Numbered from the stretch's first letter, positions 4,987 through 18,691 are shown. The stretch is 42,847 nucleotides of DNA from an uncultured Bacteroidota bacterium (GCA_903881585.1 CAIRTW010000042.1:1-42847); one strand, 5' to 3'. The notes: a model not told the origin generated them from the sequence alone. Program-made: numbers and translations.

Positions 4987-5307
4987 TCACGCTGCATAGC
5001 TGCTCCTGTTATCAAACAGCGGCTCAAACTGCCGTTCAATATTCACATGAAAGCTCTCTGGCAGGTATGCCCAGTCTCTTAGCTCCACTAATATGGGAAT
5101 GTTGCTGTCCCTTATTTTTTCGCATAGCCCGGCATATATAGCGGCAGGCAACGGAGCCAGGGTTTTGCTGCGTATCACAAGGTCAAGGTCGCTGCCTGCA
5201 TGTGCAGTTCCGTTTACACGGCTGCCATATGCCCATACTTCTACAGGCATACCAATGCTTTCAAATATGTGCAGCAGCGCTTGCTTGTCCTTATCTCTTA
5301 TCAGCAT
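4987..5307 (-). CDS. MNT-type nucleotidyltransferase (second HEPN/MNT pair)
   Basis: A 106-residue minimal nucleotidyltransferase with a full GSx10DxD motif: G28-S29 in AYGSRVNG, then D40 and D42 in GSDLDLVI. It follows an HI0074-like HEPN gene and overlaps it by 17 bases. This is the HI0073/HI0074 branch of the HEPN/MNT systems and is clearly different in sequence from the pair at 670-1349, so it is not a simple duplication. Its base composition is closer to the chromosome than the first pair. The likely role is antitoxin by nucleotidylation of the HEPN partner, inferred from the family. Confidence 0.88.
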   Translation of the reverse strand: MLIRDKDKQALLHIFESIGMPVEVWAYGSRVNGTAHAGSDLDLVIRSKTLAPLPAAIYAGLCEKIRDSNIPILVELRDWAYLPESFHVNIERQFEPLFDNRSSYAA

Positions 5308-5728
5308 TTTCGCTATTTAATTTTTGTATGGCTGCAACCAGGGCGGTAGCATCAGCAATAAATTGTGGCAGCAGCAGTACGGTTTCTTCAGCAAAGTTTA
5401 CACCGTAATCGTGGGCGGTGCTATTGCGGTTGTCGCGGTATTGCAGCCATCTTCCACATGCCTCATCCGTAATAATATTGCGCAGCACCGCATTACGAAA
5501 AACATCTTTAAATACAAGCTGGTCAACGGCTTTGGATGAATGAAAATAAGGTTTCAACCCTTTACGCAGCAACTTGCCGCTTTGCTCTAAAATGATCTCA
5601 AACTCCTTTATACACGCAGACCGGTACATATCGAAATCAATATTTTCGGGGTCTGCCTGTTTCAGTAAAGTTTGTGCTTTATCCAGCGTACTGACGCAGC
5701 GTTCCAAAAAGGCAGTTTCTATTTTCAT
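5291..5728 (-). CDS. HI0074-family HEPN protein (nucleotidyltransferase substrate-binding)
   Basis: A 145-residue helical protein of the HI0074 or nucleotidyltransferase substrate-binding family. CIKEFEIILEQSGKLLRKGL matches the FE..wE...K.LK helix and YRDNRNSTAHDYG contains the RX4H motif (R101 to H106) expected in active HEPN RNases. It is first in a two-gene operon with the MNT protein. As a type VII toxin it would cleave RNA unless modified by the partner; that is inferred. It ends up 40 bases downstream of fbp on the same strand, so read-through from fbp is possible. Confidence 0.88.
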   Translation of the reverse strand: MKIETAFLERCVSTLDKAQTLLKQADPENIDFDMYRSACIKEFEIILEQSGKLLRKGLKPYFHSSKAVDQLVFKDVFRNAVLRNIITDEACGRWLQYRDNRNSTAHDYGVNFAEETVLLLPQFIADATALVAAIQKLNSENADKR

Positions 5729-9314: not shown

Positions 9315-9833
9315 ATGAAACCAATATTCTTCAAAGCCGCCACTACGCTGCTGCTGGTTATTTTTTTTACGATCAGTGCAGAAGCGCAGTTCGAGAACGT
9401 ATACATTGGTGTGAACGGGCTCACCTGCTCCCAGTGCTCCCGCACCGTGGAACTAAGCATTCGCAAGCTGGATTTTGTAGCCGATGTGCAGATGAACCTG
9501 GAGCATACCGAGGGCAAAGTAGTGCTGAAAAAAAACAAGAAACCGGATATGGACAAAATCGCCCAGGCCATTGTGAATGCCGGCTTCTCTGTGCGCTACC
9601 TGCAGGCCGACCTGCATGTAGATAACTCGGTGGTTACCTCTGGCTCCTGTTTCAGTTACAACGGCGACCAGTACGTGCTTACAGATGCGCCGAACAAACC
9701 AATAGCAGGAGAACTAAAACTAAAGTTCATAGGTAAAAAATACATGGCGAAAAACGACTTCAAAAAAATGGAAGCCCACATGAATGACAAGTGCGGTAAC
9801 ACTGCCGGAAAAGTGTATCACGTGGCTTTATAA
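9315..9833 (+). CDS. Secreted heavy-metal-associated (HMA) domain protein
   Basis: A 172-residue exported protein: signal peptide to about SAEAQ, then an HMA domain at about residues 30-100 with the metal-binding CxxC in GLTCSQCSRTVELSIR. Cytoplasmic copper chaperones have this fold; here it is exported, so it would bind a metal such as Cu(I) in the periplasm. The C-terminal 70 residues contain three further cysteines in all (SGSCFSYN, NDKCGNT) and a strand-rich region of unknown type. It starts a run of genes with copper-related features up to 16002. It converges on the MbnP-like gene at 9865 with a short hairpin region between. Confidence 0.82.
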   Translation: MKPIFFKAATTLLLVIFFTISAEAQFENVYIGVNGLTCSQCSRTVELSIRKLDFVADVQMNLEHTEGKVVLKKNKKPDMDKIAQAIVNAGFSVRYLQADLHVDNSVVTSGSCFSYNGDQYVLTDAPNKPIAGELKLKFIGKKYMAKNDFKKMEAHMNDKCGNTAGKVYHVAL

Positions 9834-9834
9834 G

Positions 9835-9868
9835 CCGGCAAGATCCAAACAATTTCCCGGCTCTCTAT
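9835..9868. terminator. Hairpin between convergent genes
   Basis: agccgg and ccggct form an inverted repeat across the 31-base gap between the HMA gene and the convergent MbnP-like gene. There is no strong T-run, so its role as a two-way terminator is tentative. Confidence 0.3.
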
Positions 9869-10656
9869 TGCTGGTATCGGAACATATGCGGTATACTATC
9901 CGCGATAAGCTTGCCCAGCGCGGGGTTCACCAGGTTGTTATCTGTTGTGTCTTCAGTTTTAAAGTTTACGCCCGAAAGCAGTTTACCGTAGTCGCAGATC
10001 AGATAGATGTCGTTAGTACCACCCGCCACTGCGGTATATGGTGCATAAGGCGAACCGGTGCGCAACGGCATTTTTACGGTGTCCCTGTTATTAGCGGCGC
10101 TTATCCCGTAAGAGAAATAAGCAAGGTTCGCGCCCGTAAGCCCGGCCGTTGTATCGGCAAAACCCAGCAGGTACATAGACATATACTCCAGTGTGCCACT
10201 CGGGTAAAACATACTGCCGCTTGATACATAACCCGCAGGAAAGAATTCACTCGACGGCAAACCATTGGTATACGGATCAAGGCCAACATTAAAGGAAACC
10301 GAATTGTAAGTGCCGGGAGGCGCCGTCCCTATCACGTAACTTTCGCTATCAATGTCGGTTAATATATACGCATCCGGAACAGTATAGCTGGTGCCATTGG
10401 TATTCTGAAGCACCACATTATAAATGAAAAACTGCCCCAGCGATAACCCTATATGCCGACCCAGGGAATCGGTATACAGCGTTGTAGCGCTGAGTATTCT
10501 GCTGGTATCGATAGTTGGCTGCAGGTGAAAATAAAAAGTAGCCATCGTGCTGCCGGGATTGCTGCCTGGGCTCTTTTTGCATGACGTCATATCGGCAACG
10601 GTAATGGATACAATAATAGCCATCATTGTTAGGCGGATCACTATTTTGTTTTTCAT
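9865..10656 (-). CDS. MbnP-like lipoprotein (first copy)
   Basis: A 263-residue lipoprotein (lipobox at MTSCKKS) of the MbnP-like type. Recognisable parts are a first strand TFYFHLQPTID, LGRHIGLSLGQFFIYNVVL, and GTYNSVSFNVGLDPYTN, which matches the GVD-type segment of MbnP proteins. In methanotrophs MbnP binds copper after partner MbnH oxidises a tryptophan; in this protein I cannot identify the equivalent site. It is paralogous to the 276-residue protein at 11585-12415; both end with a HMFRY or NMFRY segment. It is probably periplasmic or outer-membrane anchored and part of the copper locus. Confidence 0.75.
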   Translation of the reverse strand: MKNKIVIRLTMMAIIVSITVADMTSCKKSPGSNPGSTMATFYFHLQPTIDTSRILSATTLYTDSLGRHIGLSLGQFFIYNVVLQNTNGTSYTVPDAYILTDIDSESYVIGTAPPGTYNSVSFNVGLDPYTNGLPSSEFFPAGYVSSGSMFYPSGTLEYMSMYLLGFADTTAGLTGANLAYFSYGISAANNRDTVKMPLRTGSPYAPYTAVAGGTNDIYLICDYGKLLSGVNFKTEDTTDNNLVNPALGKLIADSIPHMFRYQQ

Positions 10657-10821
10657 GATTTTCTAAAATGGTGGCAGTGGTAAAGAAATGCTCCCACATT
10701 AGATAGCCAATCATCAAAAAGTTTAAAACCTTGGTGCAAAAAAAAGCTAAAACACCGGTACGTTTCTAAAACACAGCGGTGCTTGTCTCACAATAAAATA
10801 GTTATACAAGCCAAATGATCT

Positions 10822-11151
10822 CTATTTGTATTTAATTTTATAGGCCCGTGGCTTCTTTACAAATTCATCTTTACATTCTTTGGAGCAGAACCCGATTATT
10901 TTACCCTTGTACATGACAGTATCCTCCGAACCTCTGAGTGTTGGCATACCACAAACCGGGTCCGTTTCGTTGGCAACGGCAATTCTTCCCGGTTTCTCTT
11001 TTTTAGCCGTATCTGCCGGGGCAATCACTGTATTTTGGCCGTTCGCTGCCATACCGGTTTTACCTATAGCAGATGATGTACCGGGCACACTTGCATTACA
11101 ACTGCATAATACCGCAAGGACGGCTAAATGCGCGAAATATTTTGATCTCAT
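10822..11151 (-). CDS. YHS/TRASH-like metal-binding lipoprotein
   Basis: A 109-residue lipoprotein with signal and lipobox LAVLCSCN. After a low-complexity linker the C-terminal half is a YHS-type domain: DPVCGMPTLRG, then YKGKIIGFCSKECKDEF, with three cysteines in the typical DPVCGM and FCSxxC positions. YHS domains bind copper or other soft metals and occur in copper ATPases and chaperones. It lies among MbnP-like and cytochrome-like genes on the same strand. Metal delivery or sensing in the periplasm is inferred. Confidence 0.82.
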   Translation of the reverse strand: MRSKYFAHLAVLAVLCSCNASVPGTSSAIGKTGMAANGQNTVIAPADTAKKEKPGRIAVANETDPVCGMPTLRGSEDTVMYKGKIIGFCSKECKDEFVKKPRAYKIKYK

Positions 11152-11211
11152 GATTCAATATTTTTTTGGTGTAACCTATCTTTTCAAGACAAACACTGCC
11201 CCGTAGCCTGT

Positions 11212-11595
11212 TTAGTTATTTAACGCCCCCTGCTCGATCCAATACAGTATCAGCGCCTGCTGGCTTGCAGACAAAGGGGGCGTTGGGGGCCGTGGCATTT
11301 CATTAGAGCGCACTTCGGTGTACAGCAGGCTGGCCTGCGGACTAGTTGTTGATACCAGTTCCTTTACAATTATGGTATTGTAGGCATATGCGCTGTCAAG
11401 ATTCACATTTTGATTGACTCCGTTACCTCCCAGGTGACAACCACTGTTTAGCACACAACTGGCGTTGAGTATGGGAATAATATCCTTACTAAAACTTATC
11501 TGCGGCGTCTGTGGGCTATGGGTACAAGAAACCATCTCGGCCACAACGAGCAGTGCAGCCGAGATGGCAATAACGATGTGTTTCTTATTCCTCAT
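11212..11595 (-). CDS. c-type heme-like lipoprotein with CX5CH motif
   Basis: From ATG at 11595 (MRNKKH), a 127-residue lipoprotein with lipobox MVSCTHS. It contains ISFSKDIIPILNASC, typical of Bacteroidota small cytochrome-like proteins, followed by CVLNSGCH, a CX5CH spacing instead of CXXCH, and a late Met segment SNEMPRPPTPPLS, with an ending LILYWIEQGALNN as in such cytochromes. The longer ORF start at 11637 lacks a plausible signal. The chosen ATG overlaps the end of the upstream MbnP-like gene by 11 bases, so the pair is coupled, which recalls MbnP with its heme partner MbnH, though this is not an MbnH. Heme attachment is uncertain. Confidence 0.7.
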   Translation of the reverse strand: MRNKKHIVIAISAALLVVAEMVSCTHSPQTPQISFSKDIIPILNASCVLNSGCHLGGNGVNQNVNLDSAYAYNTIIVKELVSTTSPQASLLYTEVRSNEMPRPPTPPLSASQQALILYWIEQGALNN

Positions 11596-12415
11596 ACCGG
11601 AACATATTCGGAATCCTTGCTGCAAGTGTATCTGCAATCAGTGGGTTCACCGAAGTCTGATTGCTTGTTGCAAGGTTGATTCCCGATAACAGTTTACCAT
11701 AATCACAGAGAACGTGAATGTAGTTCGTACTGCCTGCACTGGCGATATATACAGGATATGCAGCAGACCCTCTTGTGGGCAAGGAAACCTGAGTTGCGGC
11801 GGTAAGGCTATTAGGTATTTGAAAACTAAATGGTACACTGCCGGCTGGATTGACTGCGGTATCAGTCGATACCGGATCGTAGGCACCGGTGATCACCATG
11901 CCGTAATAACTAGTGCCGTTCCACATACTCGACTGCAGCGGATACGGAACACCATCGGTGATAAAATTAGTAGCCGGTGCAGTAACATCATCTGTACTAC
12001 TCAAGCCTACTGTGAACATCGCGGAAACATAGGTACCCACTGGCACCCTACACAGGTAATAGTCTTCACTATCCAGGCCTTTCAGCAACACAACATTATT
12101 GAGGCTCAACATATTTCCATTTGCATTTACCAGCATGATGTTGGATACAAAAAACTGGGGCACTAATAACTTAATACGCCGGCCCAACGAATCAAAACAC
12201 CAGGGGCTGTAATTAAAGGAGCCTGTAGTGTTGCTATCGTACCCATCTGTGTTACCGCCAATAGTGCTGTCTATGATCTGGGTGTGAAAATGGAAAAGAA
12301 AGGTTGCAGAATCTGAAGATCCGTTATTTTTTTTCTTGCAGGAAGTCATGCCTGCTGACATAAGAAATACCATTATTACCATCAGCGAAAGGACGGCTAT
12401 TGTATGTTTTTTCAT
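11585..12415 (-). CDS. MbnP-like lipoprotein (second copy)
   Basis: A 276-residue lipoprotein (signal then MTSCKKK) paralogous to the one at 9865-10656. Shared features are TFLFHFHTQIID, LGRRIKLLVPQFFVSNIML, a GTYVSAMFTVGLSSTDD segment like the MbnP GVD region, a YIHVLCDYGKLLSGIN segment matching the other copy's IYLICDYGKLLSGVN, and the end IPNMFRYEE. It overlaps the cytochrome-like gene. The two copies differ enough to suggest distinct ligands. Copper binding is inferred from the family and neighbours. Confidence 0.75.
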   Translation of the reverse strand: MKKHTIAVLSLMVIMVFLMSAGMTSCKKKNNGSSDSATFLFHFHTQIIDSTIGGNTDGYDSNTTGSFNYSPWCFDSLGRRIKLLVPQFFVSNIMLVNANGNMLSLNNVVLLKGLDSEDYYLCRVPVGTYVSAMFTVGLSSTDDVTAPATNFITDGVPYPLQSSMWNGTSYYGMVITGAYDPVSTDTAVNPAGSVPFSFQIPNSLTAATQVSLPTRGSAAYPVYIASAGSTNYIHVLCDYGKLLSGINLATSNQTSVNPLIADTLAARIPNMFRYEE

Positions 12416-12504
12416 GAGTATTTTTAATTGAAGTTTGTTTGAAAAATTAGTTTAGTTAGTTAGCTGCCACACCCCTTTGAGGCATGGGACATCAGCAGGC
12501 GTGT

Positions 12505-12521
12505 CACACTTTAGAAGTGTG
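12505..12521. terminator. Hairpin downstream of the Met-rich gene
   Basis: cacact-ttaga-agtgtg is a perfect six-pair stem just past the stop of the Met-rich gene on the reverse strand. There is no T-run after it. Confidence 0.3.
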
Positions 12522-12530
12522 CCGCATCAT

Positions 12531-13667
12531 TTAAAAAGAATATTGCAACCCGGCGAGCAGGTTTGATTTTAAGGCCATCTGTGTGCCATTGAGGTTCTGA
12601 TATACAGGCATACCATACTCGGCCATTATACGGAAATGCTCCAGCACCGGTTTCATCAGGTAAAAGTTGAGGCCTGCATATACGTTCATCCAGGTACCGC
12701 CGTAATTGCTTGCTTTTGTGGTTGGGTCATTTTCCTGGTAGATCACATTAGCTACAACCGGATCAGCGCCAGAGATCATGTCTGCATGAACATCTTCGCC
12801 TCTGAGTGTGGCGCTGAGAAACGGCAGGAACTGGTAGCCCGCCCATGCGGTTGCGTGATATACATTGCCGTCTTTATACCCAAGCGAATTATAGTTGAGT
12901 TTTACATCAGCGCCGGCATTTGCGCCCCAGTAAAACAGCCCATATTTCCGGGCATACGTAATGTCAGGGTCTATGCTCACAGATCCGGTACCGGTCTGCA
13001 TATCGTAGGCCAGGCGCTGGTTGTCACCAAGCATGGTGGTGCCAGTCTCCTTTATGCTCCCGGTAGGAAGGCTGATACCAATGCTGCCAATAATGCGCTG
13101 CGCAGCAGTACCTGAGAAATTATAGAGCGCAGACAATTTCGTATCGGTAATACCGGAAGACATAGTTTGCATGCCCATGTTTGTGCCGGCGGGCATATAC
13201 ATCCACGATCCATTCATAAACATGTATCCTCCCTTGGAGTCCATATGCATGCTCATGTTGTTCACCATATATCCGCCCATAGCCATAACTGTTAGCCTGT
13301 CGGTAACACCATACATGGCCATGAGCATGTGCATCTGCATGGTCATTGTTTCGGGGGCCATCATATAGTTCTTGTAAACTGTATTGTCACTTACCTTGTC
13401 TGTGCCAGCATTGTTGCCGCTCATCATGGAATTCATGTAGGTATAAGACAGCATCCACGTACCCTTTTTATGAATATGGTCGGTCATTACACCAAGCGGC
13501 GCCTGCGTATTTCCCGCACAGCCACAGTATCCACTGCAAGACTGGTCGTTATTAGTATTATCAATCTTTATTCCCTGATCTGTATTTTCTTGCTGGGCGT
13601 AGCTGCGGGAAGCCATGATGCCGCAAATAAACAGCAGGAATATTTTTAAAAATTTCATGCTAAACAT
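12531..13667 (-). CDS. Met-rich outer-membrane barrel-like protein
   Basis: An exported protein of 378 residues (375 if the better start MKFLKIF at 13658 is used), with signal peptide ending SYAQQ. Features: a Cys cluster SCSGYCGCAG near residue 45, then a very methionine-rich stretch (MTMQMHMLMAMYG, GGYMVNNMSMHMDSKGG, TNMGMQTM) and alternating strand-like segments to the C-terminal LLAGLQYSF, which ends in an aromatic residue as outer-membrane barrels do. Met and Cys clusters are typical Cu(I) ligands, and the gene sits with MbnP-like, YHS and HMA genes. It recalls the transporter-like proteins of copper loci in Bacteroidota. Copper uptake, export or storage at the outer membrane is inferred. 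Confidence 0.75.
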   Translation of the reverse strand: MFSMKFLKIFLLFICGIMASRSYAQQENTDQGIKIDNTNNDQSCSGYCGCAGNTQAPLGVMTDHIHKKGTWMLSYTYMNSMMSGNNAGTDKVSDNTVYKNYMMAPETMTMQMHMLMAMYGVTDRLTVMAMGGYMVNNMSMHMDSKGGYMFMNGSWMYMPAGTNMGMQTMSSGITDTKLSALYNFSGTAAQRIIGSIGISLPTGSIKETGTTMLGDNQRLAYDMQTGTGSVSIDPDITYARKYGLFYWGANAGADVKLNYNSLGYKDGNVYHATAWAGYQFLPFLSATLRGEDVHADMISGADPVVANVIYQENDPTTKASNYGGTWMNVYAGLNFYLMKPVLEHFRIMAEYGMPVYQNLNGTQMALKSNLLAGLQYSF

Positions 13668-13734
13668 TTTAAAGTTTAATTAAATAAACGCATCCCGCAG
13701 AAATATGCAGGACACCAATCAACTAAAAAAAACA

Positions 13735-14151
13735 TTAAGCAGATGGCGGATGGAAAACAGAACTATGAAAAGAGGAAGTTCGAAGGTCGTTGTAGGTAAA
13801 ATACTTATTGGGAATTTCTGAAGTAACGAAATGCTTTACTTCAAATTTAGTATTAGCGTAAAACAGGTTTACCACCTGCTCACTCTTCTGGTTGCGGGAA
13901 TTGGGCGCCTGCTCCTTGCCTTCTTTTGCCAGCTTCTTTTTCAGACAGCATTTACCATCGCAATGCATAGATGGTTTGTTCCTGTTCTCACAAAGATTTT
14001 TGGCTATGTAGTCCTTGTTGGCATAATACTGGCCCAGTATTACAACCTGGCTAAAGGTTTGTAACAATATACCCACGAGGGCAAATATGGCAACCAGTCT
14101 TTTCAATATATACTGATTCTTATCAGTTTTTAACGATAAAGTTACGGACAA
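13735..14151 (-). CDS. Cys-rich single-pass membrane protein
   Basis: A 138-residue protein with one membrane segment (VAIFALVGILLQTFSQVVIL, about residues 19-38). Then comes a conserved-looking block ANKDYIAKNLCENRNKP and HCDGKCCLKKKLAKE, with four cysteines and a histidine that could bind metal. I recall the LCENR...CxGKCxLxKxL pattern as a conserved hypothetical protein in Bacteroidota, often near metal or TonB genes. The C-terminal part is polar. Its place between the Met-rich gene and a divergent barrel gene fits the copper theme. Function is unknown. Confidence 0.75.
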   Translation of the reverse strand: MSVTLSLKTDKNQYILKRLVAIFALVGILLQTFSQVVILGQYYANKDYIAKNLCENRNKPSMHCDGKCCLKKKLAKEGKEQAPNSRNQKSEQVVNLFYANTKFEVKHFVTSEIPNKYFTYNDLRTSSFHSSVFHPPSA

Positions 14152-14187
14152 CTGCTATTATTTCCTAAATTTACTTACCGGTATTAT

Positions 14188-15180
14188 ATGAAAAAAGCCT
14201 GCTCCCTGCTGTTCGTAACCTTCCTTTCAATTTCCATAAGAGCGCAGGAATTATACAATCTTACGCTGCCGGCCAGCACTTTGCCTAAAGGAGCCTTGGG
14301 CATCAGGCTATTCAATGAAAGCTATAGCGAACAAGGTCTCATCCGTAAGATTACAGAGCTGAAACTGATGTACGGCATAACGTCAAAACTTTCAGTTACT
14401 GTAACAGGAGTAGCATCCGACTACCACTCCTTGTACCTGCCAGTCGATTTTATCCTGCATGACCATTCTGGGGGTAACGCGCCGCCCGCTGCCAATTTGC
14501 CACAAGCGACCCCCAACCCATATATTTTTGCCGGTACTGACCTCTATGCCCAATACCGCTTCCTTGCATCCGATGGGCAGAACTCCCACTTCAGGATGGC
14601 GGCCTATGGCGAAGGGTCTTATGTACGCATTGCTTCGCACCTGGGTGATCCGGAGCTGCTTACCCACAACACCGGCTTTGGCGCAGGCCTTATTACTACT
14701 TATCTGAAATCTCACTTTGCCGCTACAGCTACCTTGGGCTATGTGATCCCGACCGAGTATGCGGGCAATGCTTTCGACAAATATGGTGGTGCATACTATA
14801 CCACCATCAAGTACGGAAATGCCTTTAATTATGATCTTGCGCTGGGTTACCTGCTTTTCCCTCGGCACTATAAAACCTATAATCAGAGCAATGTGAACCT
14901 ATACCTGGAATTCCTGGGCAGGAGTTACGGAGCGGCTGCGGTGACGCAGCAGGACGGGGTGGTAACAGATCACATCCCTAACACGCCTTTCCTGAAAGCT
15001 GGCAACTATGTGGATATAAACCCCGGCGTGCAATGGATCATTAAATCGTCGTTGCGCATAGATGTTTCTGTTGGCTTCCCGCTCATCAATTCATCGTTCA
15101 TACACCAATACCCACTTTATTACATAGGGTTACAACGCTATTTCTTTTTTAAGAAGCGCAGTTCGGCAAAAAGTGATTAA
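14188..15180 (+). CDS. Predicted outer-membrane beta-barrel protein
   Basis: A 330-residue exported protein with signal peptide ending SIRAQ. It shows many short amphipathic strands (LPKGALGIRLFNES, KLMYGITSKLSVTVTGV, YAQYRFLAS, RMAAYGEGSYVRIA, NPGVQWIIKSSLRIDVSVGFPL) typical of a barrel, with loops rich in His and Gly (FILHDHSGG). It resembles the outer-membrane proteins encoded in copper/heme acquisition loci but I cannot name a family. It is the first of three co-directional genes; the next start lies 11 bases after its stop. It may work with the two small lipoproteins. Confidence 0.72.
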   Translation: MKKACSLLFVTFLSISIRAQELYNLTLPASTLPKGALGIRLFNESYSEQGLIRKITELKLMYGITSKLSVTVTGVASDYHSLYLPVDFILHDHSGGNAPPAANLPQATPNPYIFAGTDLYAQYRFLASDGQNSHFRMAAYGEGSYVRIASHLGDPELLTHNTGFGAGLITTYLKSHFAATATLGYVIPTEYAGNAFDKYGGAYYTTIKYGNAFNYDLALGYLLFPRHYKTYNQSNVNLYLEFLGRSYGAAAVTQQDGVVTDHIPNTPFLKAGNYVDINPGVQWIIKSSLRIDVSVGFPLINSSFIHQYPLYYIGLQRYFFFKKRSSAKSD

Positions 15181-15190
15181 TTTTGATACT

Positions 15191-15607
15191 ATGAAATCCC
15201 TGCCTACAATTACTGCAATTTATCTCATCTGCCTGGTTATTGGTGAAAGCTGCAAGCCTAAATCGGGCAACACGATCACCGGCGGCGGCAAGGGTGGCAC
15301 CTATACCATCAACGTCACTGGCGAGCACCACGGCGGCCTGCTCGATACCTGCAAAATGTATATAAAATATGCGACACTGGATGCACCGGCAAATGGCATA
15401 TATGATGACTCTAATGCTGCCACAATAAGCAATGGAGTGCCTGTAGCTGATTTTAGTGACCTTACTGTTGGCAATTATTATGTGCTCGCAATAGGCTACC
15501 ACGGCGGCTATTCTCCGCCCAATGTTAAAGGGGGCAAGTCATTCGTTGTTTCAGGATCTGCGCAGGTGGTAAGCGATACAATACCTACCTACCAGTATAA
15601 TCCATAA
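15191..15607 (+). CDS. Small lipoprotein, tandem copy 1
   Basis: From ATG at 15191 (MKSLPT) this gives a 138-residue lipoprotein with lipobox GESCKPK. The longer ORF from a GTG at 15173 overlaps the barrel gene and has a poorer signal. The mature part has ITGGGKGGTYTINVTGEHHGG, DTCKMYIKYATLDAPANG and LTVGNYYVLAIGYHGGY, a beta-rich pattern with a His-His pair and one internal Cys. It is paralogous to the next gene. The family is unknown to me. It is in an operon with the barrel gene. Confidence 0.75.
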   Translation: MKSLPTITAIYLICLVIGESCKPKSGNTITGGGKGGTYTINVTGEHHGGLLDTCKMYIKYATLDAPANGIYDDSNAATISNGVPVADFSDLTVGNYYVLAIGYHGGYSPPNVKGGKSFVVSGSAQVVSDTIPTYQYNP

Positions 15608-16002
15608 TGAAGAATACTATTTACATATCAGCTGTCTTTATTCTCGGCATGGCAGTTACTCAAGGTTGTAAACCCAAGCCCAACAATATCACCGGCGGCG
15701 GCAAAGGCGGAATAGCTGTTATTGCTGCTACGTGCGATTACTACGGTACTTTGCTGGATACCTGCACAGTTTACATAAAGTACAACACACATGACGCTCC
15801 TGCCAACGGTGTTTATGATGATTCGGCGGCAAGTGTATTGGTAAACAACTGGCCAACAGCAACCTTCGACAGCCTTACTGCCGGCAACTATTACCTGCTG
15901 GCTGTGGGTATTCATGCTGGATCTTTGTCGCGCGGAGCCTCACCATGCACCATAGCACAGACCGGAACTACCAAAGCGCTGATAGTAACCGGGCATAATT
16001 AG
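15607..16002 (+). CDS. Small lipoprotein, tandem copy 2
   Basis: A 131-residue lipoprotein (lipobox TQGCKPK) paralogous to the previous gene. They share CKPK, ITGGGKGG, DTC..YIKY.T.DAPANG.YDDS and LT.GNYY.LA.G. The start codon overlaps the previous stop (taATG), so they are translated together. The HH of the first copy is not kept (CDYYG here) and an additional Cys appears near the end (SPCTIAQ). The pair arose by tandem duplication and then diverged. Role unknown; location suggests a part in the copper locus. Confidence 0.75.
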   Translation: MKNTIYISAVFILGMAVTQGCKPKPNNITGGGKGGIAVIAATCDYYGTLLDTCTVYIKYNTHDAPANGVYDDSAASVLVNNWPTATFDSLTAGNYYLLAVGIHAGSLSRGASPCTIAQTGTTKALIVTGHN

Positions 16003-16084: not shown

Positions 16085-17200
16085 ATGAATAACCGGATAA
16101 CAGAATTAGAGATCAACAACTTCAAGTCCATCAAGCACATCAAGATGGACTGTAAGCGGATCAATGTGCTTATCGGCAGGCCCAACGTGGGGAAGTCGAA
16201 TATTCTGGAGGCTCTATCGTTATTTACTGCTCCTTATAGTGATCCCACTAAGAAATTTCTTGGGGATTATATTAGATATGAAAAGCTAAATAATCTTTTT
16301 TATGATCTCGAAAGAAAAAATCAGGTAAGTGTTGTATCTAATTTGGGCTTTGCGGCATTAAGATTTCACATGAACGGAATAAACGCTTATGACATAATCA
16401 TAGGCTCGGATACTACGGCTTTAGATTCAATGAATCGTTCTGATACTGGTAGAACTCTAAATGATAAAAAAAATCTCTTTGCCAGTCTCTTTACTTCAGA
16501 AGTTGTTTTAGATAATGTAATGAAAAATGCTATCCCAGCTTTTTATGCGTCAATGAATGAAGTTAGCAATAGAATGGATATTTTATATGGTAATGATGAA
16601 GGGTATCATACTCCTGTGAAAAAATATCATTTTAAATCATTAAACGAACATCCAAACCATTTCCCGCTCTTTTTACGACCACCGTATGGCGACAACCTTT
16701 TCACGATTATTGAAAGTAACCGTGATTTATGGGGAGAGGCTGCTGGTTTTTTTAATGAATATGGCTTGGACTTGTTAGTTGATAAAGAATTTGAAAAACT
16801 AAATGTTCAGAAAAGAATAGATCGTTATGTAACAAAGATTCCCTATTCTCTTGCAGCAGACACACTTCAAAGGATAATTTTCCATTTAGCAGCAATAGAA
16901 ACAAACAATGATTCCATTTTGCTTTTTGAAGAACCTGAAAACCACTCTTTTCCACCATACATAAAATTATTTGCGGAGAGATTAATAGAAAACGAGAATA
17001 ACCAATATTTTCTCGCTTCTCATAGCCCTTACATTCTTAAAACATTAATCGAGCAATGCCCTCCGGAAGATTTGTCAATTTTTGTTGCGAGCTATGAAAA
17101 TTATGAAACGAAAATAAAAGTTCTGAATGACGAAGAAATTCAAAATATCCTAGACACTCATATTGACCTATTCTTCAACATTCGTTCTTTTGAAAGATGA
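16085..17200 (+). CDS. AAA15/OLD-like ATPase
   Basis: A 371-residue ABC-type (AAA15, OLD-like) ATPase. Seen: the opening ITELEINNFKSIKHI, Walker A GRPNVGKS at residues 31-38, Walker B ILLFEEPENHSFP near residue 282, and the switch histidine in LASHSPYILKTL near residue 313. The middle 200 residues are the variable helical arm and lack family names. Such ATPases act with nuclease partners in defence systems (OLD, PARIS, Gabija-type). Its stop overlaps the next gene by four bases (ATGA). Base composition is strikingly more AT-rich than the neighbours, a sign of transfer. The N-terminal 50 residues are richer in GC than the rest, which may be a recombination joint. Confidence 0.88.
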   Translation: MNNRITELEINNFKSIKHIKMDCKRINVLIGRPNVGKSNILEALSLFTAPYSDPTKKFLGDYIRYEKLNNLFYDLERKNQVSVVSNLGFAALRFHMNGINAYDIIIGSDTTALDSMNRSDTGRTLNDKKNLFASLFTSEVVLDNVMKNAIPAFYASMNEVSNRMDILYGNDEGYHTPVKKYHFKSLNEHPNHFPLFLRPPYGDNLFTIIESNRDLWGEAAGFFNEYGLDLLVDKEFEKLNVQKRIDRYVTKIPYSLAADTLQRIIFHLAAIETNNDSILLFEEPENHSFPPYIKLFAERLIENENNQYFLASHSPYILKTLIEQCPPEDLSIFVASYENYETKIKVLNDEEIQNILDTHIDLFFNIRSFER

Positions 17201-17712
17201 TCAATATAAAAAGAATTTTTCCCGAATGTTGTGCAGATACCTTCCTTGTATCCCTCTTATTTCAGCAAGAAATGCTCCCCGATTATGACGGCATTGGAGA
17301 TGTTGCTAATGCCATGAACGCATATCCAGGTGAAGAATTTATTATCGGCCTAATTGATACAGATAAATTCAAAAGGCCTGACCCGAAATATCTGCGAGAA
17401 TTTACTGAAGTTGTTGATGACAAATTGGATTCTGAGGGGGTAATCGTAATGAAAATGCCCGGAACTAACCGGCATATAATAAGGCTGCATCCTGCATTTG
17501 AAAAATGGGCACTTGCAACCGCTCAATCTTGTGGGATTTATCCTGAAAAATATCGCTTCGAAACATTTAAGAAATTAGCCAAAGAAGCTAAGAAATTAGA
17601 AGTAGCTAAAAATAAAGATATTGAGGCTTTTCTCATGGATATTATCAATAGAAATCCTCCTGCCATCCAAACACTCAGATTCTGGCTGGAAAAAGCGGGA
17701 AACGATAATTAA
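17197..17712 (+). CDS. Small TOPRIM-like partner of the ATPase
   Basis: A 171-residue soluble protein in ATGA overlap with the ATPase gene. I read TOPRIM-like signatures: an early acidic residue in FPECCADTFLVSLL (E10, D14), then GLIDTDK with D54 and D56 after a hydrophobic strand, as in the E...DxD of OLD-family nucleases. Later comes RHIIRLHPAFEKWAL. I recall similar two-gene neighbours in Bacteroidota without a named function. If right, this is the nuclease or effector part of a two-component defence unit, comparable in layout to PARIS (AriA/AriB), although much shorter than AriB. The TOPRIM reading is inference and needs a structure model. Confidence 0.65.
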   Translation: MINIKRIFPECCADTFLVSLLFQQEMLPDYDGIGDVANAMNAYPGEEFIIGLIDTDKFKRPDPKYLREFTEVVDDKLDSEGVIVMKMPGTNRHIIRLHPAFEKWALATAQSCGIYPEKYRFETFKKLAKEAKKLEVAKNKDIEAFLMDIINRNPPAIQTLRFWLEKAGNDN

Positions 17713-17779: not shown

Positions 17780-18691
17780 ATGTTGCGGGAAGAGCCGATT
17801 AAAGCAAGGTGGCAGATAGCAGCGCGCGCGAAGGACTACAACCAGTTGTTAAAGCCCAATCTCAGCGGCATGGTGGTGTTCAGCAGCGTTATCGGCTACC
17901 TTATGGCGCCCAATGTTCATTTCGCCTGGGCGGATATGCACATCTGGCGGCAGATCATCACTCTTTTCCTGGGCGGCATGCTGGTTACGGGCGGTGCCAA
18001 TACCATCAACCAGATACTGGAACACGAGAGCGATTCACTGATGAAGCGCACCAGCGCCCGTCCCCTCCCTGAGGGCCGCATGGGTCGCACTGAGGCGTGG
18101 ATATTTGCAGCGTTTACTGGCATCGGCGGTGCATTGCTGCTTGCTTATTATTTCAACCCACTTGCCGGCGGGCTCAGTTTCTTCTCTCTTTTACTATATG
18201 CATTTGCTTATACACCAATGAAAAAAGTGCATCCTATTGCGGTGCTAATAGGCGCTGTACCGGGGGCGTTGCCGCCACTAATAGGATGGGTGGCCGCTAC
18301 AGGCGGCTTCACCCTTGGCGGGTGGGTGTTGTTCGCACTACAGTTTTTCTGGCAGTTTCCGCACTTCTGGGCTATAGCCTGGGTGGCGTTTGATGATTAT
18401 AACAGGGCCGGCATACGCATGTTGCCTACACGGGAGAAGGAAACACGATTCACGGGCATCCAGTGCATGCTTTACAGCCTGGTGCTGATACCTATGGCCA
18501 TGGTGCCACATTTCCTGGGCCTTACCGGGAATATTGGCATGTGGGTATGTGTTTTGTGCGGAATGATGTATTTTGCCGCATCGGTAGTATTTTACATCCG
18601 CAATGACCATAAATCTGCGCGCAGGGTAATGTTTGCTTCGTTTATTTACCTGCCAACAATATTGCTGGCGCTGGTGATCGATAAAATGTAA
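17780..18691 (+). CDS. ctaB: Protoheme IX farnesyltransferase (heme O synthase)
   Basis: A 303-residue polytopic membrane enzyme of the UbiA family that adds a farnesyl group to heme B, giving heme O for heme-copper oxidases. The first allylic-diphosphate motif region is NTINQILEHESDSLMKRTSARPLP and the second includes FDDYNRAGIRMLPTRE; both are as expected for Bacteroidota enzymes. About eight or nine hydrophobic segments are visible. It starts a run of oxidase genes. A near-consensus promoter box (TACTTTCG at 17742-17749) lies 30 bases upstream, consistent with independent expression after the inserted ATPase pair. Confidence 0.95.
   Translation: MLREEPIKARWQIAARAKDYNQLLKPNLSGMVVFSSVIGYLMAPNVHFAWADMHIWRQIITLFLGGMLVTGGANTINQILEHESDSLMKRTSARPLPEGRMGRTEAWIFAAFTGIGGALLLAYYFNPLAGGLSFFSLLLYAFAYTPMKKVHPIAVLIGAVPGALPPLIGWVAATGGFTLGGWVLFALQFFWQFPHFWAIAWVAFDDYNRAGIRMLPTREKETRFTGIQCMLYSLVLIPMAMVPHFLGLTGNIGMWVCVLCGMMYFAASVVFYIRNDHKSARRVMFASFIYLPTILLALVIDKM

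Follow-up and report, generated by a model that had tools for sequence, protein, structure and literature searches.

This 42,847-nucleotide stretch of DNA (the window; GCA_903881585.1 CAIRTW010000042.1:1-42847), a single contig of the draft genome (~4.85 Mb) of an uncultured Bacteroidota bacterium, raises the question of what the genes that fill its 9.3–16.0 kb region are for. An earlier note, made from the sequence alone, had proposed a copper route serving the oxidase whose assembly genes lie close by, and all of the genes that it named are present in the sequence. The region consists of two opposed gene sets: a minus-strand set that reads as one unit in the order G-F-E-D-C-B, and plus-strand genes lying downstream (A) and upstream (H-I-J) of it. 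Within the minus-strand set, G-F-E-D is a four-gene operon of a Cys-rich leader, a Met-rich barrel, an MbnP lipoprotein and a cytochrome-like lipoprotein. We favor, with slightly better than even confidence, an envelope copper-handling system that most likely acquires copper and hands it over to periplasmic copper enzymes under the control of leader G.

The four core genes are all encoded on the minus strand. G is a 123-amino acid open reading frame (ORF; 13735–14106, conserved TTG start at 14106). It is followed by F, an outer-membrane barrel with a weak match to PF13557 (12531–13658, conserved start at 13658), and by E, an MbnP-family lipoprotein of the HxH type (11585–12415; MbnP E=1.7e-9). 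D, a small cytochrome-c-like lipoprotein with a CX5CH motif (11212–11595, best start 11595), has an ATG that overlaps the end of E. A profile search of public genomes with F returned 79 loci, and the relatives with names are mostly metagenome bins of lake and soil Bacteroidetes/Chitinophagaceae. We sampled 52 Bacteroidota F loci, including some from Cytophagales and Flavobacteriales; the counts from these are not independent, as about one third come from one genus and some genomes are shared with a same-genus comparison. G lies immediately upstream of F in 51 of the 52, the sole exception being a contig end, and MbnP is the next gene downstream of F in 50, the exceptions again being contig ends. 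Of the other genes, D occurs in 39 of these loci, H in 20, I in 18 and A in 17, and cox-type genes are present in 5. In the same-genus comparison, the core G-F-MbnP-D is kept together with A, H and I in ~18 loci. The arrangement recurs in ~50 Bacteroidota loci, far beyond chance, and the co-occurrence across Bacteroidota genomes that the earlier note looked for is present.

The company kept by F in other lineages points to copper. The F ORF (378 amino acids) contains 37 Met residues (9.8%) and the motif DHIHxKG...MxMQMHMxMxMYG. In Geobacter, Nitrospirae and other lineages, F carries an N-terminal NosL domain in one reading frame; such NosL-F barrel fusions were seen at loci L113, L119, L127 and L128. 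In Gammaproteobacteria F sits between CusF and CusCBA, another Bacteroidota family has the gene order G-F-SCO-PCuAC, and one genome has NosL-F-NosD. A distant F homologue, the 'CGC barrel' (hhalign probability 96.9, E=1.3e-10), replaces F in MbnP and MbnH operons. NosL, CusF, SCO, PCuAC and MbnP thus converge on one barrel family, so that a copper link independent of the window appears well supported, and the copper-type character that had been assigned to the gene set holds up. It is very unlikely that the system instead handles another metal (Fe, Ni or Zn) or carries out envelope redox chemistry, with a resemblance to copper systems by family only. HMA and YHS domains, both found in this region, are not specific for copper, a Methylosinus F homologue adjoins FeoB/PepSY, and some CutF-like proteins, the published leaders with which G is compared below, are not linked to copper (PMC9973294); the convergence of five copper-associated families on F argues the other way. 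F homologues on Methylocystis plasmids (L142 5968-6927, L144 5953-6894) are annotated 'alpha-amylase', which is probably a misannotation.

The gene at the head of the operon had been described as a Cys-rich membrane protein. The gene is present, but a short exported leader ORF is the better description of it. G has an N-terminal hydrophobic segment, a Cx9CxGKC(C) motif and a C-terminal FHPPSA directly before the stop codon. In 33 diverse members the only invariant residues are C39, C49, G51, C53, P120 and P121. The CxGKC-type CxxxC and the Pro-Pro are found together in 112 of 113 members, usually 64–71 residues apart and exactly 67 apart in 41. The Pro-Pro lies 3–9 residues from the end in 111 of 112 G members as compared to 19 of 1207 (1.6%) other ORFs of the same loci. 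In each of 20 loci from other families that were picked solely by G homology, a copper-type operon lies directly after G on the same strand (20/20), the next gene being a CGC barrel in 12, YtkA(-TonB) in 5, MbnP in 2 and F in 1.

Two known copper-responsive leaders, both DUF2946-like, share this anatomy. CutF has a CxxxC, a Pro-rich end and a stem-loop that covers the start of the following gene (PMC9973294). CruR has a Cys motif (CXXC) and a C-terminal RAPP at fixed spacing, and heads copper operons with TonB, PepSY, SCO, PCuAC and MbnPH (PMC9426467). G resembles both as a short exported-type ORF heading copper operons, with a CxxxC and a C-terminal Pro motif; it is like CutF in combining the CxxxC with a predicted start-hiding hairpin, and like CruR in having TonB/PepSY, SCO/PCuAC and MbnPH as neighbors. 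It differs from them in lacking a DUF2946 match, in ending with [HRQ]PP rather than RAPP, and in a Cys-to-Pro-Pro distance of ~67 rather than 45. Because G has the anatomy of CutF/CruR-type copper leaders, it is a candidate copper-responsive arrest leader and the locus probably does have a regulator, although the earlier note stated that it had none. Many CutF-like proteins occur in Bacteroidota (PMC9973294), and the G family may partly fall within these. No Pfam or NCBIfam family matched G. DUF2946 was not among the matches listed for the 33 members at E<=1, and the window genome has no DUF2946 protein; G was therefore rejected as a DUF2946 protein proper, there being no profile match. True DUF2946 proteins with RAPP-type ends are found in a few Bacteroidota (L226-L230), separate from the G family. 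Small Cys/His-rich ORFs that do not belong to the G family lie ahead of F homologues (L113 6882-7379, L176 687-1109); they end in HRPP or RGPP and are possible further leaders. A shared transcription-factor site upstream of G was also considered and rejected, since only a 16-base inverted repeat (ACTGAT-TCTT-ATCAGT, 14112–14127, just upstream of the G start) was found, in the closest relatives only.

Folding and covariation predict an mRNA hairpin at the G-F junction (13655–13743, minus strand). In the window, its 5' arm runs from the codon after the second Pro of G and its 3' arm holds the F start ATG (13658–13656), with a folding z of -2.7. Seven relatives share a consensus of 25 pairs, and at eight of these both partners have changed in a compensatory manner. 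Covariation was 0.312 as compared to a shuffled mean of 0.204 (0/500 shuffles reached the observed value) and to 0.065–0.158 for slid partners; most of this signal comes from the remainder of the hairpin, the helix over the F start codon hardly varying. Folding was stronger at 97 G-headed junctions than at 102 other junctions of the same loci (p ~1e-5, for sequences that are not independent). The start was paired with the leader tail at 41 of the 97 G junctions versus 25 of the 102 controls. Among 53 instances of such pairing, 49 had the partner no more than 35 bases from the Pro codons. These results suggest that the hairpin hides the F start codon and that its arm would be melted by a ribosome paused at the Pro-Pro. 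In the mechanism that we propose, the Cys motif of the nascent G chain would sense copper during export, and pausing at the C-terminal Pro-Pro would open the hairpin and expose the F start. It seems rather unlikely that the hairpin is incidental and that G has an ordinary role as a small membrane or metal-binding protein. The control junctions that likewise pair the start region with the tail of the upstream gene fit such a protein, whereas conservation confined to the Cys residues and a terminal Pro-Pro at near-fixed spacing, together with covariation above both shuffled and slid controls, does not.

The third gene of the operon was compared with known MbnP proteins. E and its paralogue B (minus strand, 9865–10656; MbnP E=1.2e-12) score 38.3 and 48.5 bits, respectively, against PF20243 (cut-off 27); neither matched the NCBIfam MbnP model. 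For the predicted structure of E (predicted local distance difference test score, pLDDT, 82), the only Protein Data Bank entry at E<=0.001 was MbnP of Methylosinus (7l6g). E contains H42xH44, H234 and MW165, and WxW is absent from both E and B. The two motifs separate the F-linked and MbnH-linked proteins completely: the F-linked MbnPs have the N-terminal HxH in 50/50 cases and WxW in 0/50, whereas in the MbnPs linked to MbnH in these loci WxW is found in 7/7 and HxH in 0/7. In a separate phylum sample collected with the Pfam model, the MbnH-adjacent MbnPs were all WxW forms among the loci fetched. MtMbnP contains MAWNWQ, and the copper of CorA is held by two His ligands with a nearby kynurenine derived from Trp (PMC3912023). 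As HxH and WxW are mutually exclusive and the CorA site is of the His/kynurenine type, the F-linked class probably has a different copper site, for which His42, His44 and His234 of E are candidate ligands. An attempt to map the MtMbnP copper ligands by sequence gave weak profile matches only and was set aside. B no longer has the second His of HxH (His44), the C-terminal His (His234) or the Trp; it probably does not provide a copper site of the HxH kind.

The E–D pair is comparable to MbnP/MbnH (CorA/CorB, MopE) in that E belongs to PF20243, has the predicted MbnP fold and a copper context, and is a lipoprotein with a c-type-cytochrome-like partner. It differs in that E has HxH and a C-terminal His in place of the WxW (kynurenine) motif, and that its partners are the small CX4-5CH protein D and the outer-membrane barrel F instead of a neighboring MbnH; no di-heme MbnH is encoded in the window gene cluster. 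D occupies the place of MbnH and is cytochrome-like by motif, and its heme binding is putative. The motif is CX5CH in the genus and CX4CH in most other relatives, not the canonical CXXCH. A profile search matched D weakly to cytochrome c6 (E=0.004), and a fold search with AlphaFold2 and Foldseek gave no significant match. D and MbnH can coexist, as one locus has an MbnH-like di-heme protein directly after D (L037 12865-13842). Elsewhere in the window's own genome, a canonical WxW MbnP + MbnH pair is found with a YHYH-type protein (L011 5652-9142).

Taken together, F would be an outer-membrane barrel dedicated to copper, and E a periplasm-facing MbnP lipoprotein that may bind copper at its HxH site, independently of the WxW tryptophans oxidized by MbnH. 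D may substitute for MbnH in setting the redox state of copper, and A-H(-I) may constitute a second, partner module. The direction of transport is suggested by the genes found with F and G elsewhere: SCO with PCuAC, NosL/NosD, MbnPH, YtkA-TonB and TonB-PepSY. PCuAC is missing in 35/35 genomes of the genus. In the phylum sample, MbnP and PCuAC occur together in 1 of 51 MbnP genomes where ~14 would be expected if they were independent, a difference in which family-level confounding is likely. CorA/CorB and MopE are repressed by copper (PMC3912023). Given the mostly acquisition- or delivery-type genes headed by G, the copper repression of CorA and MopE, the near-exclusive occurrence of MbnP and PCuAC and the lack of PCuAC in the genus, we consider supply about twice as likely as resistance.

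Several observations weigh against this reading. F is found inside Cus efflux operons in Gammaproteobacteria, and some alphaproteobacterial plasmid F homologues adjoin PepSY/FeoB, CcmF or ABC transport genes. CutF, the closest protein to G by its CxxxC and start-hiding hairpin, turns genes on with copper (PMC9973294). D has no canonical CXXCH and its fold search was non-significant. At other G junctions the hairpin has moderate z-scores, from sequences that are related to one another. The least unlikely of the alternatives is copper detoxification, in which the operon would be copper-induced, the barrel and lipoproteins would sequester or export copper, and G would act like CutF. The CusF-CusCBA context of F and the features that G shares with CutF are consistent with this, as is a P-type ATPase fragment that precedes A-H in one locus (L195). 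However, an efflux pump, a copper ATPase and a multicopper oxidase are all missing from the operon, none of these was seen among the labelled genes of the 20 unbiased G-headed loci (0/20), and the genes that accompany G are of import or delivery types. The sign of control can differ between such leaders: CruR switches import off with copper, whereas CutF switches an oxidase on (PMC9426467, PMC9973294). The preference of the earlier note for acquisition and delivery over resistance is upheld as the better fit to the company of F and G, while the efflux context of F tells against it and the inward direction remains putative.

Supply need not mean supply to the adjacent oxidase. In the window, heme O synthase (start at 17780) is followed by two COX3-type genes, a COX4-type gene, SCO and DUF420. 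A copper route dedicated to the neighboring cytochrome oxidase, as originally proposed, is consistent with the adjacency of heme O synthase, cox and SCO genes in the window and in L062, L063, L067 and L069, with operons of F, SCO and PCuAC elsewhere, and with the missing PCuAC of the genus. However, only 4 of the 52 loci have heme O synthase and cox genes within 8 kb, and all four are close relatives of the window. The fifth locus with a cox-type gene has a lone SCO-like gene. An oxidase-dedicated operon was therefore rejected as a general rule. Also against dedication to the neighboring oxidase, most loci are away from oxidase genes, adjacency is restricted to one clade, and the genome has a second SCO. 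The genes are nearby, as had been described, but their general linkage is weak; dedication to the adjacent oxidase is unproven and, in our judgment, unlikely.

Outer-membrane copper uptake is poorly understood, and a search of the literature for Bacteroidota found no comparable system. In Bordetella, CruR-CrtA-PepSY_TM is a copper import operon (PMC12914433). It resembles the locus described here in combining a leader and an outer-membrane copper protein with a link to heme-copper oxidases, and differs in that F is not a TonB-dependent transporter and MbnP/D stand in place of PepSY. F homologues lie within the CusF-CusCBA and NosL/NosD sets of other phyla, or are fused to their members, whereas this locus includes no resistance-nodulation-division (RND) pump CusA, no CusB/CusC and no Nos genes. 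We tentatively suggest, at somewhat less than even confidence, that copper-sensing arrest leaders with a CxxxC and a terminal [HRQ]PP, distinct from DUF2946/RAPP proteins, control copper-supply operons throughout the Bacteroidota, and that one of these operons uses a copper-dedicated barrel and a kynurenine-independent HxH MbnP and may replace PCuAC. The interest of the locus lies more in its leader, barrel family and HxH MbnP class than in its oxidase neighborhood. One compact operon makes three things testable: a non-TonB copper barrel that is paired with different copper chaperones in several phyla, an MbnP class with a second kind of copper site, and a copper-sensing nascent peptide whose hairpin, motifs and their spacing allow sharp mutational predictions.

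The remaining genes of the region fall into a conserved module and additions specific to the window. A, on the plus strand, is a secreted protein that has an HMA domain and is extended at its C-terminus (9315–9833; HMA E=3.6e-8). H, a second predicted outer-membrane barrel of no family (14188–15180), and I, a lipoprotein with the pattern GGGKGG...DTCxVYIKY...YDDS that is kept with the cluster across the genus (15173–15607), are also on the plus strand. In an H-centered sample A adjoins H in all but one locus, and A-H is therefore a second stable module; with I it forms a module of secreted HMA protein, barrel and lipoprotein. B, C and J are window-specific extras. C is a YHS-domain lipoprotein on the minus strand (10822–11151; YHS E=4.8e-11, LCSC lipobox), also seen in L010/L078 and in L104 of Cytophaga aurantiaca DSM 3654, and J is a lipoprotein homologous to I, lying as an adjacent copy on the plus strand (15607–16002). 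A two-gene AAA-ATPase insertion (16085–17712) separates J from heme O synthase. The two closest relatives, L022 and L023, have neither B, C and J nor the AAA pair, which are therefore local additions. The pair, an AAA ATPase (OLD/AriA/GajA-like) and a 171-amino acid partner, looks like a defense island; it was rejected as part of the copper system because it is not in these relatives and matches OLD/AriA-type ATPases. By inspection, two toxin-antitoxin-like HEPN/MNT-type nucleotidyltransferase pairs are encoded elsewhere in the window, at 670–1349 and 4987–5728.

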